Positions 1-40,423 of a stretch of 64,000 bases of DNA are shown piece by piece (position 1 is the first letter of the stretch; each line of letters begins with the position of its first letter). The stretch comes from Auricularia sp. M13 (taxonomy: Eukaryota > Basidiomycota > Agaricomycetes > Auriculariales > Auriculariaceae), in NCBI GenBank assembly GCA_037042915.1, contig CM073199.1, positions 868,001 to 932,000 on the forward strand, written 5' to 3'. Position numbers and translations under genes: made by a program. A model generated the notes under the pieces. The model saw only the letters and a list, made by a program, of their open reading frames with translations. It was not told where the DNA came from and ran no database searches.

Positions 1-1850
1 TTTATCGCTAATACTATTTGCAGCTATCATTCTCCCGCCTCGTGCCATCTTCGACCGTGAGCGGCACTCATGCATGCAATCATCGCAGGAGTCCGGGGTA
101 TCCCGCAACGCGCCTTGAAACGGTACATCTACCATCCCGCATCCTCATCGCACCCGGACTGACGCCGCCTCTGCCGCAGATTCTCACGCCTATGCACGCG
201 CCGTGCAAAATGCCGACCCTGCCGAACGGTATGTCAATTGATTTTGTACTGGGCGTTTGAGCTGCGGCTGACCGCGATCTCGCAGCTTCTTGGCTATTTC
301 GTTCCTGCATGATCGTCCCGTTACGCTGCTCACAACAGGTACGTCAGCCCGTCTTGCAGCGCGTTTCACCGACTTGACTCACCACCGCGTTCCCAGGCTT
401 CCGAACTGCTGACCGTCTGGCCGTCGACGCCACCGATCGTTGCCCATTCCGTCTGTGCGCGCCCAGCGTCCGACTTGTCGCACGTCTGCACCGCTACCGC
501 ATACTTTGTAAGTAGCGGCTGCTGTTGCCATCGCCGCCAATTCGCAGACTGACCCGATCGTAGGTTCTCCGCGTCTCTCTCTTGTATGACCATCGCGGTA
601 CGCTGCTCGTCGAGTATGTCACATTGCCCTCTGCTCCGTCACGATAGTTCTGATCACGCCCTGCGCGACTAGGCTGCCGACCGTTCGACCCGTCGCTCTC
701 GGTCGAGTTTCGCCGCCGCCGCCGCTGCGAAGCCGTGCACTCCAACGCTGCCGAACCGCTCATCCGTTGCTTTCGGATAAGTAGCGGCTGTTGTTGCTGT
801 GAGTTCGATCGTTTTCGCATTTCAATTCTGTACTGACCACGATCGCGGTGCTGCAGAATCCTCGGCCATCGGTCCTGTATGACCATCGCAGTGCGCTTCT
901 GAAGAAAGGCATGTTGATTCGTTCATTCAGCGCGTCTGGCCGTTTATTTTTCTAGGCTACCGAACGGCTGGTCGTCCGTGCAGTTTGGTATAGACCGTGG
1001 TTCTCACTAGCTGCCGTCGTCCTCCCAACATGGCGCTCACCATCCGTTGCGCCGTCGAGAGGCAGTGCTGCGCTTACGGTACGTCACGTCGTCGAGCACG
1101 TCGCTGACCATTCCATATCTTCTCTCTCTCCAGAATCTTTCCGAGCAGCAGCAGTCGAGAACCTGGCGCTCAAGATCAACATCCGGCCGTGCTCTCTAGC
1201 GGCAGTGGTGCTGTAGGCACGCTGCTCTCGCACTTTTTCCGGTACGTCACGTCCGCGCCGTACGACGAGGCCACCGCTGACCGTTTATTCGATTTTCTGT
1301 TCAGATCGTGTCCGCAAGAAATGACTACACAACCTAGCGCTGAAGATCAACACGCTGTTGCGCTACCGAACGGCCAAAGAGCTGTCTGCGTATCTTGAGG
1401 GTACGTCGCGTCGTCTTTGCCGTTCTACGGTCCAGTTTTTTTCCCTTCTAGATCTTTTTCGCGCAGCGCCTGGGTACGTCCACGTCGTCTGCGCGTTGCT
1501 GACCGTCTGAAGTCTGATCGCAGCCCGCGGACGCCGTCATTCTGTCGCGGCGCCGAACGGCTGCGACCCTGACGATGGCTTCCGTCGGTCGCGTCGGAGT
1601 CGATGGATTTGTTCGATGACAATTCCTTCCTTTTGACCGAATCTGCGGCGGGCGCGTTCGACAACCTGGCGCTCAAGATCAAGACCGTTCATGTGCGTCG
1701 AGTCGTCTTTGCTTGACAAGCCGCAGGCTCTGACGTCCTGCTCATCTTCAGGCGGCCATGCAGCGGACGTGTGCGCCAAAGTGGAATGCCGCGCTGGAGA
1801 AGTCAGAGGCACTTGCGAGGAGTCGTGTCGTCTCTTGTACATATTTACTG
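1..1850 (+). other. Spliced-looking, weakly coding module region (partial copy)
   Basis: The window opens inside the first intron of this region (compare 9405-9452 in the next copy). It contains repeated donor-like GTACGTC sites (near 347, 1079, 1241, 1411 and 1481) and matching polypyrimidine-CAG acceptors near 403, 1131 and 1304, but no long open frame. A 20-nt motif, AACCTGGCGCTCAAGATCAA, recurs at 1160, 1331 (two mismatches) and 1663, reading NLALKI in one frame. It may be a decayed gene with repeated exons or a long non-coding transcript. I do not recognise it. Confidence 0.4.
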
Positions 1851-2017
1851 TACTGTAATACCATCAGCAAGGTATCCATAGATCTTCAAGGCAACTTGCT
1901 CAGCAGGCCTGGGTAGTGCAACTGCCAGCTCGTCTTGAATACGGATTGCACAAGGGGGCGCGGGCGGGAACAGGTGGGCATATATTGGCGCTACGGCGCA
2001 GACTGGGCGCGCGAGAG

Positions 2018-4490
2018 ATGCGGGTCGACCCGGGCCGCATGCTTTCGCGCGTGCAAGTCCGCTTGGTGACTCGCCTTCGCGCCACAGCTTCATCGATACC
2101 TTCCGTGCCGATCTTGCGTCCCCGGCTGCAACTGCGCGCGATATCAACATCCACCATGGCTGAAACGCAGCCCAGCGACCTCAAGAGCGAGATCGACTCG
2201 CTCAACGCTCTCATCCCAACACTGCCCAAGTCGTCGTCCGAGCTGGACGCGGCCAAGAAACGACTGGGCGAGCTCAAAAGGATACTCAACACGGCCTCTG
2301 GGCCTTCAAAGGAAAAGAAACGCGAGCGGTTACTGCTGAAGACACCGAAGGTGAGCGCGATCCTGTTGTGACTGAACTGCGATTTATATTGCACAGGGCA
2401 CGCGCGATTATGGTCCAGCGGAAATGGCGTGCCGCGAGCACATCGAGCGCATCGTCAAAGACGTGTTCCAGACCTTTGGCGGCAGCTGTCTCGACACGCC
2501 GGTCTTCGAGCGCAAAGACGTCTTGACGGGCAAATACGGCGAAGACCAGAAGCTTATATTCGACCTGCAAGACCAGGGTGGCGAGCAGCTCGCGCTGCGG
2601 TATGATCACACTGTGCGTGTGCACTTTACTGCGTTGAAATGGTCTGAATCCAAATCTGCAGGTCCCGCTTGCACGATATCTCGCCATGACCGGCGCCGCT
2701 GCACAAGGGGCGCCGCTCCAGAAGCTCTGGCAAGTCGGCAAAGTCTACCGACGCGACAACCCGGTCATGTCCAAGGGACGAATGCGCGAGTTCATGCAGG
2801 CGGTGCGTCGTCGTTCTGCTTTCGCACTGCTCGGTCATCGTGCGCACGGCGCGTCGCTCGCGCAGGGTCTTAAAGTGCTTGTACAAAGCCACTCTGAGCC
2901 TTCCTGCGCCGGACGCCTACGCCGCAGCCCATACCGGGTTATGCAAACCCGAGAACGGCTTGGTTCTCCAGGCCCACTTATGTTGCTTGCACGGACACCT
3001 GTCTAGGCGCGCAAAGTCTCGGGCGGCACACCTACTCTTGAGTGCGGATGCCCCTGCGCTCATTCGCCCGATACTTCATGTCATCGTCCGAATTTTACTT
3101 GGTGTGCTCATATCTGCTTCTCCTTAGGACTTTGATCTTGCGGGCACCGCAGACCCTATGATTCCAGACGCAGAACTCATAGCCATAATATCCACCATCC
3201 TCAGCAGGCTTGACGTCGGTGAGTTTACTATTAAAGTAAATCTCTTACTACGATGCGAAGGACAAAAGCTCTGATCACCCCTTCCTCCAGACTAACCACC
3301 GCAAAATTCTCGACGGCATATTCGAGGTCTGCGGCGTACCGCAGGACAAGATCCGCTCGATCTCGAGTGCGGTAGACAAGATGGACAAGGTGCGTTAATT
3401 CAGCTTGCCGAAGCGACCTGCCAACACGCGCGCAGTCGCCTTGGGAAGAGGTTCGCCGCGAGATGGTTGAGGAGAAAGGCCTCGCGCTCGAGGTTGCTGA
3501 AAAGATCGGTGTATATGTCAAGCAAAAGGGTGCGTTTATGCAACGCGGTACCACATCGAGCTGACTTTCTCAGGCGAGCCGTTCGCGCTGCTGGAAGCGC
3601 TCTCCGCCGACCCGACGCTCACGTCGAACGCGTCCGCAAAGGCCGGCCTGGACGACATGCGGCTGTTGTTCCGCTACCTGCGCGGACACGGCGTGCTTGA
3701 CCGGCTGAGCTTCGACATGTCGCTCGCGCGCGGGCTGGACTACTACACTGGGATCACTGTCGAGGCCGTCGTCGAGGCCAGCGCGCCGCCCGGCTTCCGC
3801 ACCAACCCGCCCGTGCCACCTTCCGCCAGCGAGTCCGCGCCGGCGCCGGCAACAGCGAAGCCCAAGGCGAAGAAGAAGAAGGAGAACGAGGACGACGACG
3901 AGGAGGTCGACGAGAACTCGGTCGGCGTGGGCTCGATTGCCGGCGGCGGGCGGTACGACCACCTCGTCGGGCTGTTCGCGCGGCAGGCGGCGGCGGCGGG
4001 CAAGAGCGTGCCGGACGTGCCCTGCGTGGGCGCGTCGATCGGCATGGACCGCATCTTCGCGCTCGTCTTCCCCAAGTGGCTTGCGCAGGGCCGGCGCAGC
4101 AAGCTCACCTGCGCGTACGTCATCGCCGCGGGCGACGGCCTGCTGGAGGAGCGCATCGCGCTCGCCAGCGAGCTGCGCGCCGCCGGCGTCAAGGCGGACT
4201 ACCTCTTCAAGGCCAAGCCGAAGATTGCGGCGCGGGCGAGAAGGACGAGGTGCCGTTCGAGGACCGTCGGGACTCGGAGATCGACTTGCATTTGCACAGG
4301 TGCGTTGTTTGCTGGGTGTACATATCTATGCGAGCAATACAATTTCGCGTTTCATGCGCCGTGTCTTTGGTTCGGCGTACCGTGTTTCTTCGTTGCTTTC
4401 CTAAGTCCCGCAGAAATTTCAGCTTTTCCCTTTTTCAGAGGGAAATTCGGCCATGTTTGCAGCGTTCTCATTGGCTGGTCGTTATCTTAG
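2018..4490 (+). pseudogene. HTS1: HTS1 copy 1: 3'-truncated histidyl-tRNA synthetase, frame still open
   Basis: Seven exons match the intact gene: 2018-2350, 2397-2612, 2662-2802, 3128-3235, 3291-3389, 3436-3529 and 3574 onward. All splice sites are usable and no frameshift occurs in the catalytic core. Near 4231 a 10-nt deletion shifts the frame, and after 4258 the sequence leaves HTS1. The frame then runs to a stop at 4490, giving a predicted 635-residue protein whose last 80-90 residues are unrelated, cysteine-rich and hydrophobic. The core keeps RGLDYYTG and SIGMDRI. About half of the C-terminal anticodon-binding domain is missing, so normal tRNA-His charging is unlikely. Intron 3 (325 bp) is longer than in copy 4. 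I call it a pseudogene by truncation, but a truncated product cannot be excluded. Confidence 0.85.
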
Positions 4491-4589
4491 CGAGGTGCGA
4501 GAGACAGGAATTGGGCGTTTGGAGGCGTGGAGGTCGTGAGGAACGGTGTCGAGAGGCTTGCTGGAGACACGAAACGGGCTCGGGCACGA

Positions 4590-7500
4590 TGAGAGGCAAA
4601 AACCTGTATTGACGCTAACTAATGGATATGTGCCCGTTGTTGTACCAGACAACACGAACAGTGAAATTGGGCTGAATAGGAAGCGGGCGAAATCTGCGCG
4701 GACGATGGGAACCGCGTCGAGCACAAAGCTTCGACGCGTGGTAGACGTCGCGAAAAACGCATTGGAGCAATTTTTGGCGTGCTCTGCGACGCATTGGCGC
4801 CGGTGCGGTGGGGCTGGACGCGGTCGGTCTCCTGCGGCGCTGTGGAGCAGTGGCGGCGAAAACAGATGAAATCGACTCACCGGCGACGAACCGAGCAACC
4901 GCCAGACATGCAATTTGGACGCAGCGGCTGGTGACCATGGGCGAGGTCGGGGCCGAAATTTCTAGTCGCCACGAGCAGATCTCCCCCCTCGTCGTTGGAG
5001 GCCGCGGCGAGCAAGAACTTCGATATCTCGCGAACCGCGCAACGCCCGGGCTTGACGCGCGGTATGCAAGCATGTTGGGCGTCGTCGAGCACGATGGCCA
5101 GCGCGCTTGACGCGTCCCACAGCCAGATCTGCACGCAATGATCAGCAAGTGTCGCCGTCGCTGCGCACGTCAACAAGCAACGCACATCGAAAATAGATGT
5201 CGTCTCCAGCTAGGGACATTGAATCGAGCTTTCTGGCCAATCGCGAGCGCAGGACGAGGCCTGCGGCGTTGGGAGCGGCAAAAATCGTTAGCGACGAAAA
5301 TCAAAAAGTCGTGCCACTCACGAAGCGCCGGTCCTGCGCACGCCGCACGTGGCGGGAGGATGGATTGGGACCGTCTGAGGTAGTCCCGGGTGACGGAACG
5401 AGCGCCCTACGCGAAACGTTTCTGCGAGAGGGTCAGCGCCGGCGGGAGAAGAAAGCGAGCTGCGCGCGCGGCCGTGAGCGCAGCGAGCAAAGCAACGTGG
5501 ATTTGCAACCCACATCGCTACGCCCAATCTCACGCGTCACGAGGACGTGTCGCGCTCAACGTGCCGCTCGCCGCGCGCGGAATGGCGGGAGACATGAAAC
5601 GGACCATGACTCACCAAGCGCCGGTCTCCACGCTTTAACGCGCGCCGTTCTGACGCGGCCGTGGGTGGTTGATGGCGGTCGACGCGGGAAACGATGAGCG
5701 GCAGCCTGCACGAAGAATTGTGGGCGTTCTTGTGAGCACCGGCAGCGACAAAGCCAAATGGTAGCGAACTCACCAGCCGCTAGCTCACCCGACCCTCGCA
5801 GGGCATGCGCGTGCGCAGGTGTGACCTCGGAATCGATGATGACGGGAACATAGTTGATTCCTGCAGCGGGAGTGTCAGCCGCGGCGTCACAGGCGAGGAG
5901 CGAGAGCACGGACCGTAACCACAGTGCGACGGCGATGACACTGCTCCCACATCATGCGCTGGTCCACGTCCACATCGCCAGCAAGAAGTCCGGCCGCGGC
6001 GTCGACACTTGCGGGGCGATGACTGCGACGTCTGCGCTGAGGCTGGGCGGCGCGCGGACGCTGGCGGAAAAGCGCGGGTCCGCGCGGGCCTCAGCAGCAG
6101 CGTCGGTATCTGGATGCTGCACCGCGACGCGAGTGGAATAACGCGCGTATCTACTCGCAACGTAATCAGCAACGGGCCGCGCTGCGGGTTGAACGAAACG
6201 GCGCACTTCGAACGCAACGTCCAAAAAAAGCCGCGGCGCGTGCTCGTCCGCCTCAGCGGTTGCCGCAGCAGCATTGACGCGGGGCATGTCCAGGATAACA
6301 GAGAGTGTAAATATGAGCATCGTAATCCTGGAGGCGTCGTCAGCGATGAAGACGGCGGCGGGAGAACGAAATGCGTACCTCAAAGACGACCTCCAGCGTT
6401 TGACGACGCGCAAGCCCGTGCAGCTCGACGGCGCACAGCCCTGTCTGTGTCGTCGTGTCCTGCGAGAGCTGCAAATGGATCTGGTTTGATGGGAATGACT
6501 GGACGACGCGTCAGTCGGCGGAAACATGGTGAGAACGAGTTCACTCACCTGGAGAACTACTCCAACTCGCGTGCGGCGTGCACGTTCCCGCAGTATGTCA
6601 TCACTTAGCCGGGTCAATTCACGCTCAGCTTATCGTCTGCTTCGGCGTCTCCTTCTGGGACTCGACAGTTCTGCTGAACCGCGAGGCTGGCGGAACTGCC
6701 GCGAGCATCTCGTGCGGAACTTGAAAGGAAGACAAATGTCAGCAAAGGTCATAGCGGCACGAAGCGCGACGACGACTGAGACGCACGCGGGACAGTGACT
6801 GTAAAGTGCACTCTGGATGTGGGTATTGGAAACAGCGTGTCCCGGAGACGGCACCGCCGACTGAAAGTCGCGGTCACGGGGCTCAGTGCTCACGCAGCCG
6901 CGCTAGCGTCGCGGCATCGCCGCGAAGCCAGTGCAGCGAGATTGCATGACACTGGTCACATCATCCCATTGAATGCGTTGAAAAAGAAAAAGAAAATGGA
7001 CGGGGGGGGGGTGCAATAGCAAACGCACTCACGTGACCCCTCGGCGTCGCGAGTGCGGGATTTGAATGCAGCGGGCTGCGCGTACCGATCAGCGTGAGCA
7101 ATAGCGGTTGAATGAACCACTGACCGTAGTGTTGCTCGTTGACACTGGTTTTTCAGCGGCGGGCGATTCTGGCGAGGATGGCGGCGGGAGGAAAGCCGGT
7201 GTCGTCGGACTTGAAAAACGACGGCCAGGTCGACGCTGCCGCCGACGGGAAGGAGGGAACGCGGATGGCGACTTCCGTGCGTTCGGTATCGTTGTAAGCT
7301 CTTCCGCGGCTCTCTGCCTGCTGTGGATGAAGAAACGAGCTCAGAGGAATGGCAACGATGTACTGGGCGGTTACTCACACTGCAATTGCGAGTTCAGATC
7401 GCCATGGCAGGCGTATAGGACTTGGACGTTATGAGTGCGTGAGGCTCTGCGCCGGAGGTTAGCAAGGGAATGGGATAGATAGTGGAATCGGATAGTGTGG

Positions 7501-7720
7501 AGGAACAAGTGGTCTTGGGTAGCGCCCCGAGAGCAGCAAGCGGGACACGAATGAAGAAGGTAAACACTCACAGCGTGTCAACGTCAGCAATAGGCAACAG
7601 AGTGCATCGTCCGGTAAAACCTCAAGACTTGAAGAATGCGTGCAGGTGCTGGGCGCGAGCAGCGTAGAGCCAAGGTGACGATGGGGGCGACAGAGTTGAG
7701 GTTTCCAGCGCGGGGCATTT
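4590..7720 (-). other. Splice-donor-rich, possibly decayed minus-strand gene (unit 1)
   Basis: Eight perfect GTGAGT donors occur on the minus strand at 7571, 7378, 7032, 6548, 5773, 5614, 5322 and 4880 (5' base given). Several are followed by good branch and acceptor signals, such as TTGCTAACC...GCGCAG near 7455 and CATCCACAG near 7320. Short open stretches look protein-like, for example the frame with NYVPVIIDSEVTPAHAHAL near 5800-5860, but I could not join exons into one continuous frame. It is either a decayed multi-exon gene or a spliced non-coding transcript. No family recognised. Confidence 0.4.
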
Positions 7721-8121
7721 ATCTAGAGGAGATGAAAGGCAGCGCCTGTTCGCAAAAAATTCGTTCTCCGATGACCAACCGCGGCGGTGCGTGGGCTTCG
7801 ACGAGTTAAGCGAGCCATTCAATCTTAGCCGAGGTGCAGCCACCGGCGGTTCGTCTCGTCATCCCGCCGGCTTTCTCACGCTCTGGCAGGATCGACATGA
7901 GTCGCCAACGATTCGTTTTTACGCCCTGGAATATGCGCATGACGCAGTGAACCCTGGAGAGACGCCCTCAAGTCTGACACCAACTTCAACCCGAGCTTGC
8001 GGTGACTACGGGACGCACAAGATCTGCAGCCGCAACATTCAGTTGGTCTATGAACTGAGAATGCGACGGGACGCGCGGATCCTGCGTTTGCGGTGCTGAA
8101 CGCACTGTAGCACTGAGCTCG

Positions 8122-8396
8122 AGCATGAAATTGCCCTGCAAGTTTCGCAAATGAAGCACCTGCAGAGACGAGTTTAAACACCCCACAAGGTGACGCAGTA
8201 CAAGAAAGGCGGGGAATCTCGCCTGATTTACATTTGTACAACTGAGTCGCGTTGCTGGAACGCAAAGGCATATTCTTTCGAGCCTGAAACCGCTCTACAA
8301 GTCTCGCAGTAAAGCAGCAGCATATACAAGCGTGGAGCACCGCAAAAAGCGACACGGTACAAGAAAGTTCGCACGATTTACAATGGGACTCTGTCT
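8122..8396 (+). repeat. Diverged direct duplication inside the unit
   Basis: Two related blocks follow one another, at about 8122-8247 and 8282-8396. They share the order GCMTGAAA..GCTCTACAAGTCTCGCA-like, then ACACGGTACAAGAAAG-like, then GATTTACA. The same pair is present in the other units. Its function is unknown. Confidence 0.5.
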
Positions 8397-8500
8397 CGAG
8401 TCGGTTTTCGCGCATTGAACAAGAAGGCAAACTTTTTTCGGCTGAGAACTATTTCGGCGGACATCCCATAACATGAGAGCATATACTAGTCACTAATATG

Positions 8501-8508
8501 TCACGTGA
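8501..8508. promoter_or_regulatory. Palindromic E-box TCACGTGA
   Basis: A perfect 8-bp palindrome containing CACGTG, the site of bHLH regulators such as Cbf1/Pho4-type proteins. It lies upstream of the unit promoter. The same site is at 18267-18274 and 27597-27604. Confidence 0.4.
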
Positions 8509-8972
8509 TCCTTTTTCGCCCGCGGAAACGAGTGGAAATGCTGAGACTTTGACCGGGCGAGGAGCGTTCCGCGGGACTTCGGCAGAATGCGGTATCCGTG
8601 AGTTCTGCGCAATCGACCTCGAACACCGGCCGTCGACCCACCTACGTGCGGCATCGCATCACCAATCGGTGTATTACTCAGTCTGCGTGCGTCGCACGAC
8701 GTTTTCCAATCGAAAAACATGCGACGGAAGGCCGTGAGGCGCAGCGCGCGTAACTCGTCCAAATCTGCATTCCGCGCAAAACGACTCGTTCCACCGGCGG
8801 TCTAGAGCCGCAACGCTAATTGACATGCATGATGTGATGCGAGAAGCACGGGGCGTGCTTGGAAACGCGCCGCTTTGGATGGGGTGAGAGATAGCAGGTC
8901 GGACGAGGTCTGCGGTATAGGGGAGTATAGGGGCCCCTCCCCCCTCAGCCAACCACGTAGAGTCTTACAAGG

Positions 8973-8980
8973 TCACGTGA
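8973..8980. promoter_or_regulatory. Second palindromic E-box TCACGTGA
   Basis: Second perfect copy of the same octamer, about 255 bp before the TATA box. Equivalents are at 18739-18746 and 28068-28075. Two identical octamers ahead of one promoter suggest a real regulatory pair. Confidence 0.45.
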
Positions 8981-9234
8981 CACGTTTATGTGCGAGGGAT
9001 GGAGGGGAGAAAATGAGAGGGCGGCGAGAAATTCGCGTTGGACGGTCGGCGGCACCGGAAGCGAGCCCAGCGCCCCAACGCCGCGCACCGCACCAGACCT
9101 CGCTTCCGCCCATTCAACGGCTATGATCAGCTGCGGGTATACATTTTATTGTGTATCAGTTGGCCGCTGACTCGTGTACGGCGAAGGAACGGCCGAGAAT
9201 GCGGCTTTGCTCGCCGGAAGGGTGGTTGAGCAGG

Positions 9235-9241
9235 TATAAAA
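9235..9241 (+). promoter_or_regulatory. TATA box of the array unit
   Basis: TATAAAA lies in a GC-rich context, followed about 30 bp later by a pyrimidine-rich leader and then a clear intron (9405-9452, GTGAGT donor, CTAAT branch, TTTGCAG acceptor). This is the layout of an RNA polymerase II core promoter facing rightwards. HTS1 starts 2.2 kb further on, so this promoter probably serves the module region and not HTS1 directly. Confidence 0.65.
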
Positions 9242-9264
9242 GCCACGCCCAAGTCTTCAGTGAG

Positions 9265-11279
9265 CCTCATTCCCCTCCCTTGCTCTTCTCCTTCCATTTT
9301 GCCTCCTTTGACGCGCTCTCGCTCGACCTCCTCGCTGTCAGCTGCGCGCCACCGTGCACGTCGTTAGTCTCGGCCAGCAACGTTCTGCGACATCGCCCCT
9401 GACGGTGAGTGCGAGCATCTCTCTGTCGTTTTATCGCTAATACTATTTGCAGCTATCATTCTCCCGCCTCGTGCCATCTTCGACCGTGAGCGGCACTCAT
9501 GCATGCAATCATCGCAGGAGTCCGGGGTATCCCGCAACGCGCCTTGAAACGGTACATCTACCATCCCGCATCCTCATCGCACCCGGACTGACGCCGCCTC
9601 TGCCGCAGATTCTCACGCCTATGCACGCGCCGTGCAAAATGCCGACCCTGCCGAACGGTATGTCAATTGATTTTGTACTGGGCGTTTGAGCTGCGGCTGA
9701 CCGCGATCTCGCAGCTTCTTGGCTATTTCGTTCCTGCATGATCGTCCCGTTACGCTGCTCACAACAGGTACGTCAGCCCGTCTTGCAGCGCGTTTCACCG
9801 ACTTGACTCACCACCGCGTTCCCAGGCTTCCGAACTGCTGACCGTCTGGCCGTCGACGCCACCGATCGTTGCCCATTCCGTCTGTGCGCGCCCAGCGTCC
9901 GACTTGTCGCACGTCTGCACCGCTACCGCATACTTTGTAAGTAGCGGCTGCTGTTGCCATCGCCGCCAATTCGCAGACTGACCCGATCGTAGGTTCTCCG
10001 CGTCTCTCTCTTGTATGACCATCGCGGTACGCTGCTCGTCGAGTATGTCACATTGCCCTCTGCTCCGTCACGATAGTTCTGATCACGCCCTGCGCGACTA
10101 GGCTGCCGACCGTTCGACCCGTCGCTCTCGGTCGAGTTTCGCCGCCGCCGCCGCTGCGAAGCCGTGCACTCCAACGCTGCCGAACCGCTCATCCGTTGCT
10201 TTCGGATAAGTAGCGGCTGTTGTTGCTGTGAGTTCGATCGTTTTCGCATTTCAATTCTGTACTGACCACGATCGCGGTGCTGCAGAATCCTCGGCCATCG
10301 GTCCTGTATGACCATCGCAGTGCGCTTCTGAAGAAAGGCATGTTGATTCGTTCATTCAGCGCGTCTGGCCGTTTATTTTTCTAGGCTACCGAACGGCTGG
10401 TCGTCCGTGCAGTTTGGTATAGACCGTGGTTCTCACTAGCTGCCGTCGTCCTCCCAACATGGCGCTCACCATCCGTTGCGCCGTCGAGAGGCAGTGCTGC
10501 GCTTACGGTACGTCACGTCGTCGAGCACGTCGCTGACCATTCCATATCTTCTCTCTCTCCAGAATCTTTCCGAGCAGCAGCAGTCGAGAACCTGGCGCTC
10601 AAGATCAACATCCGGCCGTGCTCTCTAGCGGCAGTGGTGCTGTAGGCACGCTGCTCTCGCACTTTTTCCGGTACGTCACGTCCGCGCCGTACGACGAGGC
10701 CACCGCTGACCGTTTATTCGATTTTCTGTTCAGATCGTGTCCGCAAGAAATGACTACACAACCTAGCGCTGAAGATCAACACGCTGTTGCGCTACCGAAC
10801 GGCCAAAGAGCTGTCTGCGTATCTTGAGGGTACGTCGCGTCGTCTTTGCCGTTCTACGGTCCAGTTTTTTTCCCTTCTAGATCTTTTTCGCGCAGCGCCT
10901 GGGTACGTCCACGTCGTCTGCGCGTTGCTGACCGTCTGAAGTCTGATCGCAGCCCGCGGACGCCGTCATTCTGTCGCGGCGCCGAACGGCTGCGACCCTG
11001 ACGATGGCTTCCGTCGGTCGCGTCGGAGTCGATGGATTTGTTCGATGACAATTCCTTCCTTTTGACCGAATCTGCGGCGGGCGCGTTCGACAACCTGGCG
11101 CTCAAGATCAAGACCGTTCATGTGCGTCGAGTCGTCTTTGCTTGACAAGCCGCAGGCTCTGACGTCCTGCTCATCTTCAGGCGGCCATGCAGCGGACGTG
11201 TGCGCCAAAGTGGAATGCCGCGCTGGAGAAGTCAGAGGCACTTGCGAGGAGTCGTGTCGTCTCTTGTACATATTTACTG
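9265..11279 (+). other. TATA-driven, weakly coding module region (copy 2)
   Basis: This is a presumed transcript starting about 30 bp after the TATA box. The first intron at 9405-9452 is well formed. Later there are repeated GTACGTC donors and CTGAC...CAG acceptors, but no frame stays open across the predicted exons. Two modules, about 270-290 bp apart, share GTAAGTAGCGGCTG and TGTATGACCATCGC. The tail just before HTS1 has an AT-rich stretch near 11270. Confidence 0.4.
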
Positions 11280-11446
11280 TACTGTAATACCATCAGCAAG
11301 GTATCCATAGATCTTCAAGGCAACTTGCTCAGCAGGCCTGGGTAGTGCAACTGCCAGCTCGTCTTGAATACGGATTGCACAAGGGGGCGCGGGCGGGAAC
11401 AGGTGGGCATATATTGGCGCTACGGCGCAGACTGGGCGCGCGAGAG

Positions 11447-19007: not shown

Positions 19008-19030
19008 GCCACGCCCAAGTCTTCAGTGAG

Positions 19031-21188: not shown

Positions 21189-23360
21189 ATGCGGGTCGAC
21201 CCGGGCCGCATGCTTTCGCGCGTGCAAGTCCGCCTGGTGACTCGCCTTCGCGCCACAGCTTCATCGATACCTTCCGTACCGATCTTGCGTCCCCGGCTGC
21301 AACTGCGCGCGATATCAACATCCACCATGGCTGAAACGCAGCCCAGCGACCTCAAGAGCGAGATCGACTCGCTCAACGCTCTCATCCCAACACTGCCCAA
21401 GTCGTCGTCCGAGCTGGACGCGGCCAAGAAACGACTGGGCGAGCTCAAAAGGATACTCAACACGGCCTCTGGGCCTTCAAAGGAAAAGAAACGCGAGCGG
21501 TTACTGCTGAAAACACCGAAGGTGAGCGCGATCCTGTTGTGACTGAACTGCGATTTATATTGCACAGGGAACGCGCGATTATGGTCCAGCGGAAATGGCG
21601 TGCCGCGAGCACATCGAGCGCATCGTCAAAGACGTGTTCCAGACCTTTGGCGGCAGCTGTCTCGACACGCCGGTCTTCGAGCGCAAAGACGTCTTGACGG
21701 GCAAATACGGCGAAGACCAGAAGCTTATATTCGACCTGCAAGACCAGGGTGGCGAGCAGCTCGCGCTGCGGTATGATCACACTGTGCGTGTGAATTTTAC
21801 TGGTTGAAATGGTCTGAATCAAATCTGCAGGTCCCGCTTGCACGATATCTCGCCATGACCGGCGCCGCTGCACAAGGGCGCCGCTCCAGAAACTCTGGCA
21901 AGTCGGCAAAGTCTACCGACGCGACAACCCGGTCATGTCCAAGGGTCGAATGCGCGAGTTCATGCAGGCGGTGCGTCGATCGTTTTGATTTTCGCACTGC
22001 TCGGATCGCCTATCATATGCCGTTTGCTTGTACAAAGCCACTCTGAGCCTTCCTGCGCCGGACGTTTGCCCAAGCCCGATGCACGCTCGGTCTGGGCCCA
22101 CTTATGTTGCTTGCCGGACATGTTCTCTGCTGCAAAGTCGCCAGCGAAGAACTCTGAGTGCGGATCTGCTCATTCGCCCGATTCTCCTGTCATCGGCCAG
22201 AATTTGAAGTCTCTGATCTATCTCTTCTTAGGACTTTGATCTTGCGGGCACCGCAGATCCCATGATTCCAGACGCAGAACTGATTGCCATCATATCGACG
22301 ATTCTGAGCAGGCTTGACGTCGGTGAGTTTACCATCAAAGTGAATATCTTGACTTCGCAGCGGGAGGCGTGAGCGCTGAGCACTCCTGCCAGACTAACCA
22401 CCGCAAAATTCTCGACGGCATATTCGAGGTCTGCGGCGTACCGCAGGACAAGATACGCTCGATTTCGAGTGCGGTAGACAAGATGGACAAGGTGCGTCTA
22501 TTCAGCTTGCCGAAGCGACCTGCCAACACGGACGCAGTCGCCTTGGGAAGAGGTCCGCCGCGAGATGGTCGAGGAGAAAGGACTTGCGCTCGAGGTTGCT
22601 GAAAAGATCGGTGTATATGTCAAGCAAAAGGGTGCGTTTATGCAACGCGGTACCACATCGAGCTGACTTTCTCAGGCGAGCCGTTCGCGCTGCTGGAAGC
22701 GCTCTCCGCCGACCCGACGCTCACGTCGAACGCGTCCGCAAAGGCCGGCCTGGACGACATGCGGCTGTTGTTCCGCTACCTGCGCGGACACGGCGTGCTT
22801 GACCGGCTGAGCTTCGACATGTCGCTCGCGCGCGGGCTGGACTACTACACTGGGATCACCGTCGAGGCCGTCGTCGAGGCCAGCGCGCCGCCCGGCTTCC
22901 GCACCAACCCGGCCGTGCCACCTTCCGCCAGCGAGTCCGCGCCGGCGCCGGCAACAGCGAAGCCCAAGGCGAAGAAGAAGAAGGAGAACGAGGACGACGA
23001 CGAGGAGGTCGACGAGAACTCGGTCGGCGTGGGCTCGATTGCCGGCGGCGGGCGGTACGACCACCTCGTCGGGCTGTTCGCGCGGCAGGCGGCGGCGGCG
23101 GGCAAGAGCGTGCCGGACGTGCCCTGCGTGGGCGCGTCGATCGGCATGGACCGCATCTTCGCGCTCGTCTTCCCCAAGTGGCTTGCGCAGGGCCGGCGCA
23201 GCAAGCTCACCTGCGCGTACGTCATCGCCGCGGGCGACGGCCTGCTGGAGGAGCGCATCGCGCTCGCCAGCGAGCTGCGCGCCGCCGGCGTCAAGGCGGA
23301 CTACCTCTTCAAGGCCAAGCCGAAGATTGCGGCGCGGGCGAGAAGGACGAGGTGCCGTTC
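21189..23360 (+). pseudogene. HTS1: HTS1 copy 3: truncated and frameshifted
   Basis: A mosaic copy. Exons 1-2 match copies 1 and 2, while most of exon 4 and the intron after it match the intact copy 4. One G is missing in exon 3 (ACAAGGGCGCC instead of ACAAGGGGCGCC, near 21878), breaking the frame before the HisRS motif 2 arginines. Intron 3 is 261 bp. Truncation at 23360 and the 10-nt deletion are shared with copies 1 and 2. Confidence 0.9.
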
Positions 23361-23689
23361 GAGGACCGTCGGGACTCGGAGATCGACTTGCATTTGCACA
23401 GGTGCGTTGTTTGCTGGGTGTACATATCTATGCGAGCAATACAATTTCGCGTTTCATGCGCCGCGTCTTTGGTTCGGCGTACCGTGTTTCTTCGTTGCTT
23501 TCCTAAGTCCCGCAGAAATTTCGTCTTTTCCCTTTTTCAGAGGGAAATTCGGCCATGTTTGCAGCGTTCTCATTGGCTGGTCGTTATCTTAGCGAGGTGC
23601 GAGAGACAGGAATTGGGCGTTTGGAGGCGTGGAGGTCGTGAGGAACGGTGTCGAGAGGCTTGCTGGAGACACGAATCGGGCTCGGGCAC

Positions 23690-26600
23690 GATGAGAGGCA
23701 AAAACCTGTATTGACGCTAACTAATGGATATGTGCCCGTTGTTGTACCAGACAACACGGACAGTGAAGTGGGGCTGAATAGGAAGCGGGCGAAATCTGCG
23801 CGGACGATGGGAACCGCGTCGAGCACAAAGCTTCGACGCGTGGTAGACGTCGCGAAAAACGCATTGGAGCAATTTTTGGCGTGCTCTGCGACGCATTGGC
23901 GCCGGTGCGGTGGGGCTGGACGCGGTCGGTCTCCTGCGGCGCTGTGGAGCAGCGGCGGCGAAAACAGATGAAATCGACTCACCGGCGACGAACCGCGCAA
24001 CCGCGAGACGTGCAATTTGTACGCAGCGGCTGGTGACCATGGGCGAGGTCGGGGCCGAAATTTCTAGTCGCCACGAGCAGATCTCCCCCCTCGTCGTTGG
24101 AGGCCGCGGCGAGCAAGAACTTCGATATCTCGCGAACCGCGCAACGCCCGGGCTTGACGCGCGGTATGCAAGCATGTTGGGCGTCGTCGAGCACGATGGC
24201 CAGCGCGCTTGACGCGTCCCACAGCCAGATCTGCACGCAATGATCAGCAAGTGTCGCCGTCGCTGCGCACGTCAACAAGCAACGCACATCGAAAATAGAT
24301 GTCGTCTCCAGCTAGGGACATTGAATCGAGCTTTCTGGCCAATCGCGAGCGCAGGACGAGGCCTGCGGCGTTGGGAGCGGCAAAAATCGTTAGCGACGAA
24401 AATCAAAAAGTCGTGCCACTCACGAAGCGCCGGTCCTGCGCACGCCGCACGTGGCGGGAGGATGGATTGGGACCGTCTGAGGTAGTCCCGGGTGACGGAA
24501 CGAGCGCCCTACGCGAAACGTTTCTGCGAGAGGGTCAGCGCCGGCGGGAGAAGAAAGCGAGCTGCGCGCGCGGCCGTGAAGCGCAGCGAGCAAAGCAACG
24601 TGGATTTGCAGCCCACATCGCTACGCCCAATCTCACGCGTCACGAGGACGTGTCGCGCTCAACGTGCCGCTCGCCGCGCGCGGAATGGCGGGAGACATGA
24701 AACGGACCATGACTCACCAAGCGCCGGTCTCCACGCTTTAACGCGCGCCGTTCTGACGCGGCCGTGGGTGGTTGATGGCGGTCGACGCGGGAAACGATGA
24801 GCGGCAGCCTGCACGAAGAATTGTGGGCGTTCTTGTGAGCACCGGCAGCGACAAAGCCAAATGGTAGCGAACTCACCAGCCGCTAGCTCACCCGACCCTC
24901 GCAGGGCATGCGCGTGCGCAGGTGTGACCTCGGAATCGATGATGACGGGAACATAGTTGAGCACTGCAGCGGGAGTGTCAGCCGCGGCGTCACAGGGGAG
25001 GAGCGAGCACGGACCTTGACCACAGTGCGACGGCGATGACACTGCTCCCACATCATGCGCTGGTCCACGTCCACATCGCCAGCAAGAAGTCCGGCCGCGG
25101 CGTCGACACTTGCGGGGCGATGACTGCGACGTCTGCGCTGAGGCTGGGCGGCGCGCGGACGCTGGCGGAAAAGCGCGGGTCCGCGCGGGCGTCAGCAGCA
25201 GCGTGAGCTTCTGGATGCTGCACTGCGACGCGAGGGGAACAACACGTGTCGCAACGTAATCAGAAATGCACCGGGCTGCCGGTTGAACGAAACGGCGCAC
25301 ACTTTGGATGCAACGTCCAAACATAGCCACGGCGCGTGCTCGTCCGCCTCAGCGGTTGCCGCAGCAGCATTGACGCGGGGCATGTCCAGGATAACAGAGA
25401 GAGTAAATATGAGCATCGTAATCCTGGAGGCGTCGTCAGCGATGAAGACGGCGGCGGGAGAACGAAATGCGTACCTCAAAGACGACCTCCAGCGTTTGAC
25501 GACGCGCAAGCCCGTGCAGCTCGACGGCGCACAGCCCTGTCTGTGTCGTCGTGTCCTGCGAGAGCTGTAAATGGATCTGGTTTGATGGGAATGACTGGAC
25601 GACGCGTCAGTCGGCGGAAACATGGTGAGAACGAGTTCACTCACCTGGAGAACTACTCCAACTCGCGTGCGGCGTGCACGTTCCCGCAGTATGTCATCAC
25701 TTAGCCGGGTCAATTCACGCTCAGCTTATCGTCTGCTTCGGCGTCTCCTTCTGGGACTCGACAGTTCTGCTGAACCGCGAGGCTGGCGGAACTGCCGCGA
25801 GCATCTCGTGCGGAACTTGAAAGGAAGACAAATGTCAGCAAAGGTCATAGCGGCACGAAGCGCGACGACGACTGAGACGCACGCGGGACAGTGACTGTAA
25901 AGTGCACTCTGGATGTGGGTATTGGAAACAGCGTGTCCCGGAGAGGGCACCGCCGACTGAAAGTCGCGGTCACGGGGCTCAGTGCTCACGCAGCCGCGCT
26001 GGCGTCGCGGCATCGCCGCGAAGCCAGTGCAGCGAGATTGCATGACACTGGTCACATCATCCCATTGAATGCGTTGAAAAAGAAAAGAAAATGGACGGGG
26101 GGGAGGGTGCAATAGCAAACGCACTCACGTGACCCCTCGGCGTCGCGAGTGCGGGATTTGAATGCAGCGGGCTGCGCGTACCGATCAGCGTGAGCAATAG
26201 CGGTTGAATGAACCACTGACCGTAGTGTTGCTCGTTGACACTGGTTTTTCAGCGGCGGGCGATTCTGGCGGGGATGGCGGCGGGAGGAAAGCCGGTGTCG
26301 TCGGACTTGAAAAACGACGGCCAGGTCGACGCTGCCGCCGACGGGAAGGAGGGAACGCGGATGGCGACTTCCGTGCGTTCGGTATCGTTGTAAGCTCGTC
26401 CGCGGCTCTCTGCCTGCTGTGGATGAAGAAACGAGCTCAGAGGAATGGCAACGATGTACTGGGCGGTTACTCACACTGCAATTGCGAGTTCAGATCGCCA
26501 TGGCAGGCGTATAGGACTTGGACGTTATGAGTGCGTGAGGCTCTGCGCCGGAGGTTAGCAAGGGAATGGGATAGATAGTGGAATCGGATAGTGTGGAGGA

Positions 26601-26815
26601 TCAAGTGGTCTTGGGTAGCGCCCCGAGAGCAGCAAGCGGGACACGAATGAAGAAGGTAAACACTCACAGCGTGTCAACGTCAGCAATAGGCAACAGAGTG
26701 CATCGTCCGGTAAAACCTCAAGACTTGAAGAATGCGTGCAGGTGCTGGGCGCGAGCAGCGTAGAGCCAAGGTGACGATGGGGGCGACAGAGTTGAGGTTT
26801 CCAGCGCGGGGCATT
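23690..26815 (-). other. Splice-donor-rich minus-strand region (unit 3)
   Basis: Third copy of the region at 4590-7720. It contains a clearly more divergent tract at about 24960-25330 with several substitutions and indels against units 1 and 2, while the flanks stay nearly identical. Confidence 0.4.
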
Positions 26816-28329
26816 TATCTAGAGGAGATGAAAGGCAGCGCCTGTTCGCAAAAAATTCGTTCTCCGATGACCAACCGCGGCGGTGCGTGGGCTTCGACGA
26901 GTTAAGCGAGCCATTCAATCTTAGCCGAGGTGCAGCCACCGGCGGTTCGTCTCGTCATCCCGCCGGCTTTCTCACGCTCTGGCAGGATCGACATGAGTCG
27001 CCAACGATTCGTTTTTACGCCCTGGAATATGCGCATGACGCAGTGAACCCTGGAGAGACGCCCTCAAGTCTGACACCAACTTCAACCCGAGCTTGCGGTG
27101 ACTACGGGACGCACAAGATCTGCAGCCGCAACATTCAGTTGGTCTATGTACTGAGAATGCGACGGGACGCGCGGATCCTGCGTTTGCGGTGCTGAACGCA
27201 CTGTAGCACTGAGCTCGAGCATGAAATTGCCCTGCAAGTTTCGCAAATGAAGCACCTGCAGAGACGAGTTTAAACACCCCACAAGGTGACGCAGTACAAG
27301 AAAGGCGGGGAATCTCGCCTGATTTACATTTGTGCAACTGAGTCGCGTTGCTGGAACGCAAAGGCATATTCTTTCGAGCCTGAAACCGCTCTACAAGTCT
27401 CGCAGTAAAGCAGCAGCATATACAAGCGTGGAGCACCGCAAAAAGCGACACGGTACAAGAAAGTTCGCACGATTTACAATGGGACTCTGTCTCGAGTCGG
27501 TTTTCGCGCATTGAACAAGAAGGCAAACTTTTTTCGGCTGAGAACTATCTCGGCGGACATCCCATGACATGAGAGCATATACTAGTCACTAATATGTCAC
27601 GTGATCCTTTTTCGCCCGCGGAAACGAGTGGAAATGCTGAGACTTTGACCGGGCGAGGAGCGTTCCGCGGGACTTCGGCAGAATGCGGTATCCGTGAGTT
27701 CTGCGCAATCGACCTCGAACACCGGCCGTCGACCCACCTACGTGCGGCATCGCATCACCAATCGGTGTATTACTCAGTCTGCGTGCGTCGCACGACGTTT
27801 TCCAATCGAAAAACATGCGACGGAAGGCCGTGAGGCGCAGCGCGCGTAACTCGTCCAAATCTGCATTCCGCGCAAAACGACTCGTTCCACCGGCGGTCTA
27901 GAGCCGCAACGCTGATTGACGTGCATGATGTGATGCGAGAAGCACGGGGCGTGCTTGGAAACGCGCCGCTTTGGATGGGGTGAGAGATAGCAGGTCGGAC
28001 GAGGTCTGCGGTATAGGGGAGTATAGGGGCCCCTCCCCCTCAGCCAACCACGTAGAGTCTTACAAGGTCACGTGACACGTTTATGTGCGAGGGATGGAGG
28101 GGAGAAAATGAGAGGGCGGCGAGAAATTCGCGTTGGACGGTCGGCGGCACCGGAAGCGAGCCCAGCGCCCCAACGCCGCGCACCGCACCAGACCTCGCTT
28201 CCGCCCATTCAACGGCTATGATCAGCTGCGGGTATACATTTTATTGTGTATCAGTTGGCCGCTGACTCGTGTACGGCGAAGGAACGGCCGAGAATGCGGC
28301 TTTGCTCGCCGGAAGGGTGGTCGAGCAGG

Positions 28330-28336
28330 TATAAAA
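28330..28336 (+). promoter_or_regulatory. TATA box of the array unit (copy 4)
   Basis: Same TATAAAA promoter as at 9235 and 19001. This copy lies upstream of the intact HTS1 gene. Confidence 0.65.
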
Positions 28337-28359
28337 GCCACGCCCAAGTCTTCAGTGAG

Positions 28360-30245
28360 CCTCATTCCCCTCCCTTGCTCTTCTCCTTCCATTTTGCCTC
28401 CTTTGACGCGCTCTCGCTCGACCTCCTCGCTGTCAGCTGCGTGCCACCGTTGCCGTGCACGTCGTTAGTCTCGGCCAGCAACGTTCTGCGACATCGCCCC
28501 TGACGGTGAGTGCGAGCATCTCTCTGTCGTTTTATCGCTAATACTATTTGCAGCTATCATTCTCCCGCCTCGTGCCATCTTCGACCGTGAGCGGCACTCA
28601 TGCATGCAATCATCGCAGGAGTCCGGGGTATCCCGCAACGCGCCTTGAACCCGTACATCTACCATCCCGCATCCTCATCGCACCCGGACTGACGCCGCCT
28701 CTGCCGCAGATTCTCACGCCTATACACGCGCCGTGCAAAATGCCGCCCCTGCCGAACGGTATGTCAATTGATTTTGTACTGGGCGTTTGAGCTGCGGCTG
28801 ACCGCGATCTCGCAGCTTCTTGGCTATTTCGTTCCTGCATGATCGTCCCGTTACGCTGCTCACAACAGGTACGTCAGCCCGTCTTGCAGCGCGTTTCACC
28901 GACTTGACTCACCACCGCGCTCCCAGGCTTCCGAACTGCTGACCGTCTGGCCGTCGACGCCACCGATCGTTGCCCATTCCGTCTGTGCGCGCCCAGCGTC
29001 CGACTTGTCGCACGTCTGCACCGCTACCGCATACTTTGTAAGTAGCGGCTGCTGTTGCCATCGCCGCCAATTCGCAGACTGACCCGATCGTAGGTTCTCC
29101 GCGTCTCTCTCTTGTATGACCATCGCGGTACGCTGCTCGTCGAGTATGTCACATTGCCCTCTGCTCCGTCACGATAGTTCTGATCACGCCCTGCGCGACT
29201 GGGCTGCCGACCGTTCGACCCGTCGCTCTCGGTCGAGTTTCGCCGCCGCCGCCGCTGCGAAGCCGTGCACTCCAACGCTGCCGAACCGCTCATCCGTTGC
29301 TTTCGGATAAGTAGCGGCTGTTGTTGCTGTGAGTTCGATCGTTTTCGCATTTCAATTCTGTACTGACCACGATCGCGGTGCTGCAGAATCCTCGGCCATC
29401 GGTCCTGTATGACCATCGCAGTGCGCTTCTGAAGAAAGGCATGTTGATTCGTTCATTCAGCGCGTCTGGCCGTTTATTTTTCTAGGCTACCGAACGGCTG
29501 GTCGTCCGTGCAGTTTGGTATAGACCGTGGTTCTCACTAGCTGCCGTCGTCCTCCCAACATGGCGCTCACCATCCGTTGCGCCGTCGAGAGGCAGTGCTG
29601 CGCTTACGGTACGTCACGTCGTCGAGCACGTCGCTGACCATTCCATATCTTCTCTCTCTCCAGAATCTTTCCGAGCAGCAGCAGTCGAGAACCTGGCGCT
29701 CAAGATCAACATCCGGCCGTGCTCTCTAGCGGCAGTGGTGCTGTAGGCACGCTGCTCTCGCACTTTTTCCGGTACGTCACGTCCGCGCCGTACGACGAGG
29801 CCACCGCTGACCGTTTATTCGATTTTCTGTTCAGATCGTGTCCGCAAGAAATGACTACACAACCTAGCGCTGAAGATCAACACGCTGTTGCGCTACCGAA
29901 CGGCCAAAGAGCTGTCTGCATATCTTGAGGGTACGTCGCGTCGTCTTTGCCGTTCTACGGTCCAGTTTTTTCCCTTCTAGATCTTTTTTGCGCAGCGCGG
30001 CGCTGTTCTGGGTCCGTCCCCGTCGTCTGTTCGCGTTGCTGCGGGCGCGTTCGACTCAAGATCAAGACACCAGGTCGTTCATGTGCGTCGAGTCGTCTTT
30101 GCTTGACAAGCCGCAGGCTCTGACGTCCTGCTCATCTTCAGGCGGCCATGCAGCGGACGTGTGCGCCAAAGTGGAATGCCGCGCTGGAGAAGTCAGAGGC
30201 ACTTGCGAGGAGTGATGTCGTCTCTTGTACATATTTACTGTACTG
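28360..30245 (+). other. Weakly coding module region (copy 4)
   Basis: Equivalent to 9265-11279, with a larger deletion near 29980-30090. It leads directly into the 5' region of the intact HTS1 gene. Confidence 0.4.
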
Positions 30246-30407
30246 TAATACCATCAGCAAGGTATCCATAGATCTTCAAGGCAACTTGCTCAGCAGGCCT
30301 GGGTAGTGCAACTGCCAGCTCGTCTTGAATACGGATTGCACAAGGGGGCGCGGGCGGGAACAGGTGGGCATATATTGGCGCTACGGCGCAGACTGGGCGG
30401 GCGAGAG

Positions 30408-32735
30408 ATGCGGGTCGACCCGGGCCGCATGCTTTCGCGCGTGCAAGTCCGCTTGGTGACTCGCCTTCGCGCCACAGCTTCATCGATACCTTCCGTGCCG
30501 ATCTTGCGTCCCCGGCTGCAACTGCGCGCGATATCAACATCCACCATGGCTGAAACGCAGCCCAGCGACCTCAAGAGCGAGATCGACTCGCTCAACGCTC
30601 TCATCCCAACACTGCCCAAGTCGTCGTCCGAGCTGGACGCGGCCAAGAAACGACTGGGCGAGCTCAAAAGGCTACTCAACACGGCGTCCGGGCCTTCAAA
30701 GGAAAAGAAACGCGAGCGGTTACTGCTCAAAACGCCAAAGGTGAGCGCGATCCTGTTGTGACTGAACTGCGATTTATATTGCACAGGGAACGCGCGATTA
30801 TGGCCCAGCGGAAATGGCGTGCCGCGAGCACATCGAGCGCATCGTCAAAGACGTGTTCCAGACCTTTGGCGGCAGCTGTCTCGACACTCCGGTCTTCGAG
30901 CGCAAAGACGTCTTGACGGGCAAGTACGGCGAAGACCAGAAGCTTATATTCGACCTGCAAGACCAGGGTGGCGAGCAGCTCGCGCTGCGGTATGATCACA
31001 CTGTGCGTGTGCACTTTACTGGGTTGAAATGGTCTGAATCCAAATCTGCAGGTCCCGCTTGCACGATATCTCGCCATGACCGGCGCCGCTGCACAAGGGG
31101 CGCCGCTCCAGAAGCTCTGGCAAGTCGGCAAAGTCTACCGACGCGACAACCCGGTCATGTCCAAGGGTCGAATGCGCGAGTTCATGCAGGCGGTGCGTCG
31201 ATATTTTGATTTTCGCACTGCGGACGCCTATCATATGCCGTTTGCGTATGCGTCTCCCGTTTTCCCAAGCCCGATGCACGCTCGGTCTGGGCTACCCGAT
31301 GTTCTCTGCTGCACGCCAGCGAAGAACTCTTGCTCTGCGCGCCCGTTCTCCTGACACGGCCAGAATGAAGTCTCTGATCTGCCTCTTCTTAGGATTTCGA
31401 TCTTGCGGGCACCGCAGATCCCATGATTCCAGACGCAGAACTGATTGCCATCATATCGACGATTCTGAGCAGGCTTGACGTCGGTGAGTTTACCATCAAA
31501 GTGAATATCTTGGCTTCGAAGCGGGAGGCGTGAGCGCTGAGCACTCCTGCCAGACTAACCACCGGAAAATCCTCGATGGCATCTTCGAGGTCTGCGGCGT
31601 ACCGCAGGACAAGATCCGCTCGATTTCGAGTGCGGTAGACAAGATGGACAAGGTGCGTTAATTCAGCTTGCCGAAGCGACCTGCCAACACGCGCGCAGTC
31701 GCCTTGGGAAGAGGTTCGCCGCGAGATGGTTGAGGAGAAAGGCCTCGCGCTCGAGGTTGCTGAAAAGATCGGTGTATATGTCAAGCAAAAGGGTGCGTTT
31801 ATGCAACGCGGTACCACATCGAGCTGACTTTCTCAGGCGAGCCGTTCGCGCTGCTGGAAGCGCTCTCCGCCGACCCGACGCTCACGTCGAACGCGTCCGC
31901 AAAGGCCGGCCTGGACGACATGCGGCTGTTGTTCCGCTACCTGCGCGGACACGGCGTGCTTGACCGGCTGAGCTTCGACATGTCGCTCGCGCGCGGGCTG
32001 GACTACTACACTGGGATCACTGTCGAGGCCGTCGTCGAGGCCAGCGCGCCGCCCGGCTTCCGCACCAACCCGCCCGTGCCACCTTCCGCCAGCGAGTCCG
32101 CGCCGGCGCCGGCAACAGCGAAGCCCAAGGCGAAGAAGAAGAAGGAGAACGAGGACGACGACGAGGAGGTCGACGAGAACTCGGTCGGCGTGGGCTCGAT
32201 TGCCGGCGGCGGGCGGTACGACCACCTCGTCGGGCTGTTCGCGCGGCAGGCGGCGGCGGCGGGCAAGAGCGTGCCGGACGTGCCCTGCGTGGGCGCGTCG
32301 ATCGGCATGGACCGCATCTTCGCGCTCGTCTTCCCCAAGTGGCTTGCGCAGGGCCGGCGCAGCAAGCTCACCTGCGCGTACGTCATCGCCGCGGGCGACG
32401 GCCTGCTGGAGGAGCGCATCGCGCTCGCCAGCGAGCTGCGCGCCGCCGGCGTCAAGGCGGACTACCTCTTCAAGGCCAAGCCGAAGATCGCGGCGCAGTT
32501 CGCTGCGGGCGAGAAGGACGAGGTGCCGTTCTGCATCATCCTGGGCGAGGGCGAGCTCAAGGAGGGCGTCGTGACCGTCAAGGAGCAGCGGTGGGAGAGG
32601 AACGACGGCGCTGCGGGCAAGACCAAGGTCGTTGCGAAGGAAGGTGACTTGGGCGTCAAGGTGCCACGCGACCAGCTGGTGAGCTGGTTGAAGGCGCAAG
32701 AGCTGTATCAGATGTGGGAGAGGGGGGAGGCATAG
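30408..32735 (+). CDS. HTS1: Histidyl-tRNA synthetase, intact copy (cytosolic and probably mitochondrial)
   Basis: Charges tRNA-His with histidine (class II synthetase). Exons: 30408-30740, 30787-31002, 31052-31192, 31393-31500, 31554-31652, 31699-31792, 31837-32735, giving 629 residues from the first ATG. Visible are GTRDYGP at the start of the catalytic domain, motif 2 with VGKVYRRD and [12 protein letters not shown], the HisA motif RGLDYYTG and motif 3 [10 protein letters not shown], then the complete C-terminal anticodon-binding domain. ATGs at 30408 and 30429 precede an Arg/Ser-rich, acid-poor leader typical of mitochondrial import. The ATG at 30546 (MAETQPSD) would give a 583-residue cytosolic form, as in the dual-start HTS1 of yeast. 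An unusual insert at about residues 398-450 is Pro/Ala-rich, then Lys-rich, then acidic. This is the only complete copy of the array. Confidence 0.95.
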
Positions 32736-40377: not shown

Positions 40378-40423
40378 GTTCGGTAATAAGTTCGTTAGAG
40401 ATGTAGGAGCTCGATGCTGCTGC

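Follow-up and report, generated by a model that had tools for sequence, protein, structure and literature searches.

Homing-endonuclease elements of fungal mitochondria (Allomyces atp6 type) bring with them a substitute for one end of the gene that they invade. Segregation Distorter, which spreads selfishly in Drosophila, is a single protein-coding duplicate without any element comparable to the spacer (E) described in this study. This duplicate is described as a truncated tandem copy of RanGAP (PMC2668186). Helitrons, including fungal Helitron2/Helentron, capture gene parts, form circles and may lie head to tail (PMC5148889), and tandem amplification through extrachromosomal circles is described in two yeast papers, for CUP1 (PMC6890164) and for an engineered xylose strain (PMC4352087). 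The subject of this study is a stretch of 64,000 nucleotides from Auricularia sp. M13 (the window; C7:868001-932000, where C7 is contig CM073199.1 and window position 1 is C7:868001; the genome comprises 52.1 Mb in 14 contigs), in which truncated copies of HTS1, the gene for histidyl-tRNA synthetase (HisRS), alternate with E. The account that we prefer, and for which we see about as much chance of being right as of being wrong, is that E is a non-coding selfish family that inserts together with a duplicated 5' part of a host gene, replaces the promoter of that gene, and is amplified by recombination between the gene duplicates. Positions given without a contig name refer to the window.

The HTS1 array consists of eight gene copies and seven copies of E, from ~C7:832,675 to ~C7:900,735, with the start codons of HTS1 at C7:832684, 842001, 851314, 860611, 870039, 879468, 889210, and 898429. 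A first-pass annotation of the window had proposed a tandem amplification of four copies with only the last one complete: the latter part held, whereas the array begins ~35 kb left of the window and the count is eight. Seven of the eight copies end at one identical base (junction sequence ...GTGCCGTTC|GAGGACCG), and the three junctions within the window lie exactly at 4258, 13686, and 23360, as that annotation had read them. On the plus strand of the window follow truncated copy 5 (2039..4258, from ATG to junction, stop-free and with intact splice sites), E (4259..11458; the right edge is set where gene homology begins, 9 bp before the ATG, not at a known end of E), copy 6 (11468..13686), E (13687..21200), copy 7 (21210..23360), E (23361..30419), and copy 8 (30429..32735). 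Only copy 8 is complete, running to the native stop (32733-32735) as had been claimed, and encodes 622 amino acids in seven exons with six GT..AG introns (fungal-type introns are found in the window genes) and Pfam matches to tRNA-synt_His and HGTP_anticodon. This gene model places the breakpoint in the last exon, in agreement with the first-pass annotation. The left edge of the duplicated segment is also sharp, homology between the left-most and last copies starting 9 bp before the ATG. All seven truncated copies share a frame-shifting 10-base deletion directly upstream of the junction; copies 1-5 are stop-free up to the junction, copies 6 and 7 each carry a 1-base frameshift, and splice sites are intact throughout. 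The catalytic N-terminal half of HisRS gave eight matches in the genome, every one inside this array, and a search of the 52-Mb genome found no HisRS match elsewhere; by sequence, copy 8 appears to be the sole complete HisRS gene of the genome.

Genome searches with pieces of E revealed relatives in nine other arrays, with an identity between families of ~65-84%. Including the seven copies at HTS1, at least 10 loci hold two or more E, with at least 46 copies in total (both lower bounds): seven copies at C7:2.16-2.23 Mb (a phosphatase locus with a DSPc domain, referred to as C7b), two at C11:186-202 kb, four at C6:2.01-2.05 Mb, five at C9:3.045-3.085 Mb, two at C1:453-462 kb, four at C4:3.61-3.65 Mb (the last one 25 kb from the third), a pair 13 kb apart at C7:3.007/3.020 Mb, four at C7:3.378-3.409 Mb, and nine on C14 (match length, 131 bp). 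Nine single sites were also found (C7:2.953, C7:3.083, C1:8.130, C5:4.203, C3:3.602, C2:2.524, C1:5.695, C2:1.858, and C6:1.452 Mb), some by matches of only 100-500 bp. An E-related sequence at C7:2.247, C1:0.284, and C8:0.832 Mb (C7:2244049-2250000, C1:280510-286474, and C8:829289-835217; it may extend further) shows 99% mutual identity over ~5.9 kb and is 66% identical to E in parts, and was possibly mobile recently. The suggestion that the amplification serves content of the unit other than HTS1 was thus borne out, in that this content is a dispersed family lying in tandem at unrelated genes, and the idea of a one-off local duplication fell with the relatives of E in other arrays and at single sites across the genome. 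Separately, two further possible arrays (C1 0.66-0.70 and 7.80-7.83 Mb) were seen through ~400 bp at ~70% identity to sequence flanking the gap at importin-beta (see below), and past the C7b array (C7:2150001-2160000, ~3400-4160 of that stretch, minus strand) lies an extra gene-start fragment; over 306 bp it shares 95% identity with the first copy, and the sequence upstream of it is similar to that upstream of the array copies.

Counts were feasible at five loci, and at each of them n copies of E are interleaved with n+1 copies of the 5' part of a host gene: seven and eight at HTS1, nine and ten at importin-beta, five and six at MED12, two and three at a gene on C11, and one and two at SMC4. 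HTS1, SMC4, and importin-beta are essential genes in yeast. The direct host-gene duplicates flanking E measure 0.6-2.5 kb, and at the three best-resolved loci they start 9 bp (HTS1), 7 bp (C11), and 12 bp (SMC4) before the ATG. SMC4 represents the simplest state: the first 0.6 kb of the gene is present twice (96% identity), with a single 7.6-kb E in between. The importin-beta array makes up contig C14 (86,453 bp), where nine gene copies are protein-identical and the tenth, lying at the edge of the contig, is a partial match (217 of 272 amino acids, 80%). Since the C-terminal part of importin-beta (C7:2.242 Mb) adjoins a gap of 100 N, and a genome search found no match to the N-terminal half off C14, this contig most likely belongs in that gap near C7:2.2428 Mb, judging from sequence. 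The domain Med12-LCEWAV, used as a marker of complete MED12, was matched neither here nor in the controls and so carried no information.

The gap at importin-beta bears on whether the array is a single unit expanded by the assembler. That the importin-beta array was split off onto a separate 86-kb contig, with the other end of the gene beside the 100-N gap, indicates that the assembler struggled there. However, the HTS1 units vary in both sequence and length, no N occurs in the 114 kb examined, SMC4 has one unit only, E families are no more than ~65-84% identical, and similar arrays lie at other genes, which together make an artefact highly improbable. Copies on the kilobase scale at 93-99.7% identity are not due to chance. 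If the array were an ordinary tandem duplication, produced by non-allelic recombination or replication slippage, E would be no more than local sequence caught in the unit; this reading agrees with the identity of 97-99.7% between units over 9-24 kb in shifted alignments, which resembles the outcome of unequal crossing-over. This is a good account of the growth in copy number but not of the recurrence of E: one family is found in ten arrays, at unrelated genes wherever the gene was identified, and at the five loci counted n E accompany n+1 gene copies. Ordinary duplication is therefore contradicted as a full explanation, and as such we consider it decidedly unlikely.

The order of the parts around E is best seen at the C11 gene. 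(The frame tested there had no Pfam match; the label "amidohydrolase-like" comes from reading the sequence only.) An inverted paralogue is 86-88% identical to the array copies, and was judged to be older because the array copies are 94-99% identical to one another. Within the 156 bp before the ATG, two stretches of the paralogue match the left-most copy (one of 118 bp at 81%, which includes 20 coding bp, and one of 31 bp at 90%), with no match to copies 2 and 3 at an E-value of 0.001. On the 3' side, homology of the paralogue continues for a further 1 kb with copy 3, whereas with copies 1 and 2 it ends at the junction. These homologies therefore place the native promoter at the left end of the array and the native 3' end at the right, with E upstream of the complete copy. 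The complete C11 gene is thus a hybrid that has E on its upstream side and keeps the native 3' end, a feature of homing-type replacement found at C11 only.

The truncated HTS1 copies retain ~90% of the coding sequence (1675-1679 of 1869 nt), close to the first-pass statement that the broken copies are at least 90% intact; the implication that they are decaying pseudogenes did not stand, although two of the seven are frameshifted, because their differences are overwhelmingly synonymous. Against the complete gene, copies 1-7 show 21, 17, 17, 30, 30, 30, and 24 synonymous and 4, 2, 2, 1, 1, 1, and 2 replacement differences (403 synonymous and 1223 replacement sites), which are not seven independent comparisons, copies 2 and 3 being alike and likewise copies 4, 5, and 6. 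Introns diverge from those of the last copy by 0.5-22%. Mostly replacement changes are expected in neutral pseudogenes. Constraint is weaker on the SMC4 duplicate (14 synonymous and 7 replacement changes) than on HTS1. Such strong avoidance of replacement changes (1-4 vs 17-30) and the preservation of all splice sites would fit selection for many HisRS copies lacking part of the anticodon-binding domain and made for a separate purpose. On the other hand, two of the seven copies are frameshifted, the frame-shifting 10-base deletion is present in all seven, and comparable arrays contain 5' parts of the importin-beta and MED12 genes; a simpler account of the pattern is exchange with a functional copy, and selection for truncated proteins is very unlikely. 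Because two copies are frameshifted, we take the pattern as a probable sign of ongoing exchange with functional alleles and not of selection acting on truncated proteins.

E itself is apparently non-coding, to judge from its sequence. In eight open reading frames of one E copy from the HTS1 array, no convincing Pfam domain was found (best E-value 0.027, below the cut-off), and no Rep/helicase, reverse transcriptase, or endonuclease domain; non-autonomous Helitrons lack Rep/helicase anyway. In tblastx comparisons between E families, similarity was spread over many frames and not confined to one, and a codon-substitution signal above z 3 was obtained in 1 of 330, 0 of 120, and 0 of 72 tests in three alignable stretches, compared with 29 of 387 in a host-gene control. 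For LTR (long terminal repeat) elements or LINEs (long interspersed nuclear elements), no reverse transcriptase in the tested frames and no coding signal were found, and host introns are kept in the HTS1 duplicates; LTRs were not searched for as such. No Rfam match at the gathering score was obtained in the window or in stretches L015, L016, L025, and L029, and no tRNA gene was found in the window in a scan with bacterial settings.

Several non-coding features are shared between families. The conserved left border of E (23425..23829, plus strand, in the copy upstream of complete HTS1) is 78-82% identical to E of C7b, C11, and C6. A 19-base motif, TATGTGCCCGTTGTTGTAC, occurs in eight E families (with one mismatch in one copy each of C7b and C9, and in opposite orientation in that of C7:2240001-2250000, L023); the window contains three matches (4627..4645, 14055..14073, and 23729..23747, all plus), as against none in shuffles. 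A viral origin of E was considered and rejected, the exact 19-mer having no match in viral contigs. Further to the right, an AGGGG(N0-3)CCCCT palindrome lies 261-305 bp upstream of TATAAA in seven E families, and the pair occurs 16 times in 264 kb of the C7a, C7b, and C11 stretches, once per E. Within the window, the palindromes, part of a promoter-like region of E, are located at 8929..8938 (TATAAA at 9235..9240), 18695..18704 (TATAAA at 19001), and 28025..28040, the last followed by TATAAA at 28330..28335 (plus) as the proposed rightward promoter of E. Intron-like signals of the fungal type are found on the minus strand in the left part of E in five of five families (6, 8, 9, 4, and 3 vs 0, 0, 0, 0, and 1 on the plus strand), including 6 vs 0 in 23421..28000. 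In the right part, plus-strand signals outnumber those on the minus strand in two families (8 vs 1, in 28301..30250 of the window, and 16 vs 1); the division into left and right parts was chosen by the analyst.

Helitron-like behavior is the closest competing explanation: a non-autonomous rolling-circle element, using a helicase from elsewhere, would capture the 5' part of a neighboring gene by overrunning its own end, and concatemers of circles would be inserted head to tail. Head-to-tail copies, identical junctions, fused gene parts, and the lack of a coding signal fit the end-bypass capture and circular intermediates described for Helitrons, whose non-autonomous copies lack coding sequence, as in E (PMC5148889). 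However, E lies between duplicates of the very gene that it interrupts, which a simple Helitron insertion does not produce, and it has been multiplied in situ at several core genes; in place of insertion at A/T without target duplication, direct duplicates of 0.6-2.5 kb are found, and the eight tested frames contain no Rep/helicase domain. A Helitron-like origin is thus unlikely. Homing elements resemble E in invading a conserved essential gene, supplying a substitute part, and leaving one complete hybrid gene, but E replaces the 5' end and promoter instead of the 3' end, is nuclear, has no coding signal, and forms arrays. Circles in yeast can likewise give rise to tandem gene-bearing units, whereas in this genome one non-coding element is found again and again at unrelated genes, and truncated copies form the majority of the amplified HTS1 copies. 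Segregation Distorter shares the truncated duplicate of a core cell gene, but is one coding duplicate with no counterpart of E.

Under the preferred account of a promoter-replacing selfish family, insertion into a host gene would bring a duplicate of its 5' part, beginning immediately ahead of the start codon and ending at a variable position inside the gene, giving the order of native promoter and truncated gene, E, and 5' part fused to the native 3' end. The sole complete copy would thereby sit behind E and not behind its own promoter, as may be the case at HTS1. From their position and motifs, the promoter-like region (palindrome and TATA) and the intron-rich flanks of E may keep the complete gene expressed; this would let the element occupy essential genes without killing the host, which would come to depend on E. 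Recombination between the direct gene duplicates would then multiply the unit of E and truncated gene, by unequal crossing-over or possibly by homologous integration of a circle carrying E and the gene 5' part, and the same recombination would keep passing sequence between truncated and functional copies. In its sequence, the structure is equivalent to the product expected of single-crossover circle integration, or of insertion with a kilobase-long target duplication, whose units unequal exchange would then multiply. We infer that E is or was mobile.

Several observations weigh against this account. The layout with a replaced promoter has the support of a paralogue at C11 only. At C7b, nothing seems to be hijacked, because a 706-amino-acid open frame is intact in the left-most copy but disrupted in the last array copy, which starts ~23 bp after the ATG. 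The unit on C1 contains an apparently complete AlkB-like frame, the repeat ending ~1 kb past it. A comparison of the 700 bp preceding seven gene starts revealed almost no similarity from one array to another (for C9 and C6 the choice of start is uncertain, and the C9 stretch looks by eye like coding sequence of MED12), which leaves the right end of E undefined. These dissimilar upstream regions led us to consider that the last copy retains its native promoter, which was rejected at C11 by the paralogue comparison but may hold at the other loci. E yielded no transposase or recombinase, and among the searches made, near-identical E at unlinked sites, which would mark recent movement, was limited to the one ~5.9-kb relative. 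The single-copy element at SMC4 has neither the left border nor the 19-mer, the palindrome was not found in 7.0 of the 8.8 kb of the C14 unit or in L023 (C7:2240001-2250000), and the plus-strand bias of intron signals in the right part of E is clear in only two of five families (2 vs 3, 3 vs 5, and 5 vs 4, plus vs minus, in the other three).

A bolder extension, which we regard as quite doubtful, is that E homes to essential genes without any protein and takes over their promoters, that leftward antisense transcription into the truncated copies silences E-free alleles, and that its own complete copy provides rescue, that is, a poison-and-rescue system aimed at the genes for a tRNA synthetase, importin-beta, condensin, and Mediator. 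No description of such arrays was recognised in a weak search of open-licence PubMed Central, covering titles and the starts of abstracts. If promoter replacement by E is correct, a non-coding family has repeatedly colonised core genes (histidyl-tRNA synthetase, importin-beta, SMC4, and MED12), and the survival of the host hangs on parasite sequence. This would provide a testable case for the invasion of essential genes by an element that itself has no protein gene, and would bear on the origin of kilobase target duplications and on whether truncated essential-gene copies take part in genetic conflict. For annotation, the HTS1 locus could be called as eight HisRS genes, and one array fell on a separate contig.

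Other features were noted around the array. To its left (C7:818001-828000, ~6003-7859 of that stretch) lies a 619-amino-acid open frame that resembles a retrotransposon polyprotein by eye only. To its right, NAD-dependent epimerase domains were found in three open frames (33179-34291, 39478-40506, and 56444-57610), the first two of which are in opposite orientation and form a 527-bp inverted repeat at 83% identity. A perfect inverted repeat (37404-38343) has two 410-bp arms, 100% complementary and 120 bp apart, with short tandem repeats inside. An 884-amino-acid open frame (43222-45873) contains a DUF6535 domain, of a family indicative of mushroom-forming fungi, and is adjoined by a Cdc6/ORC-like frame on the minus strand (46241-47296).

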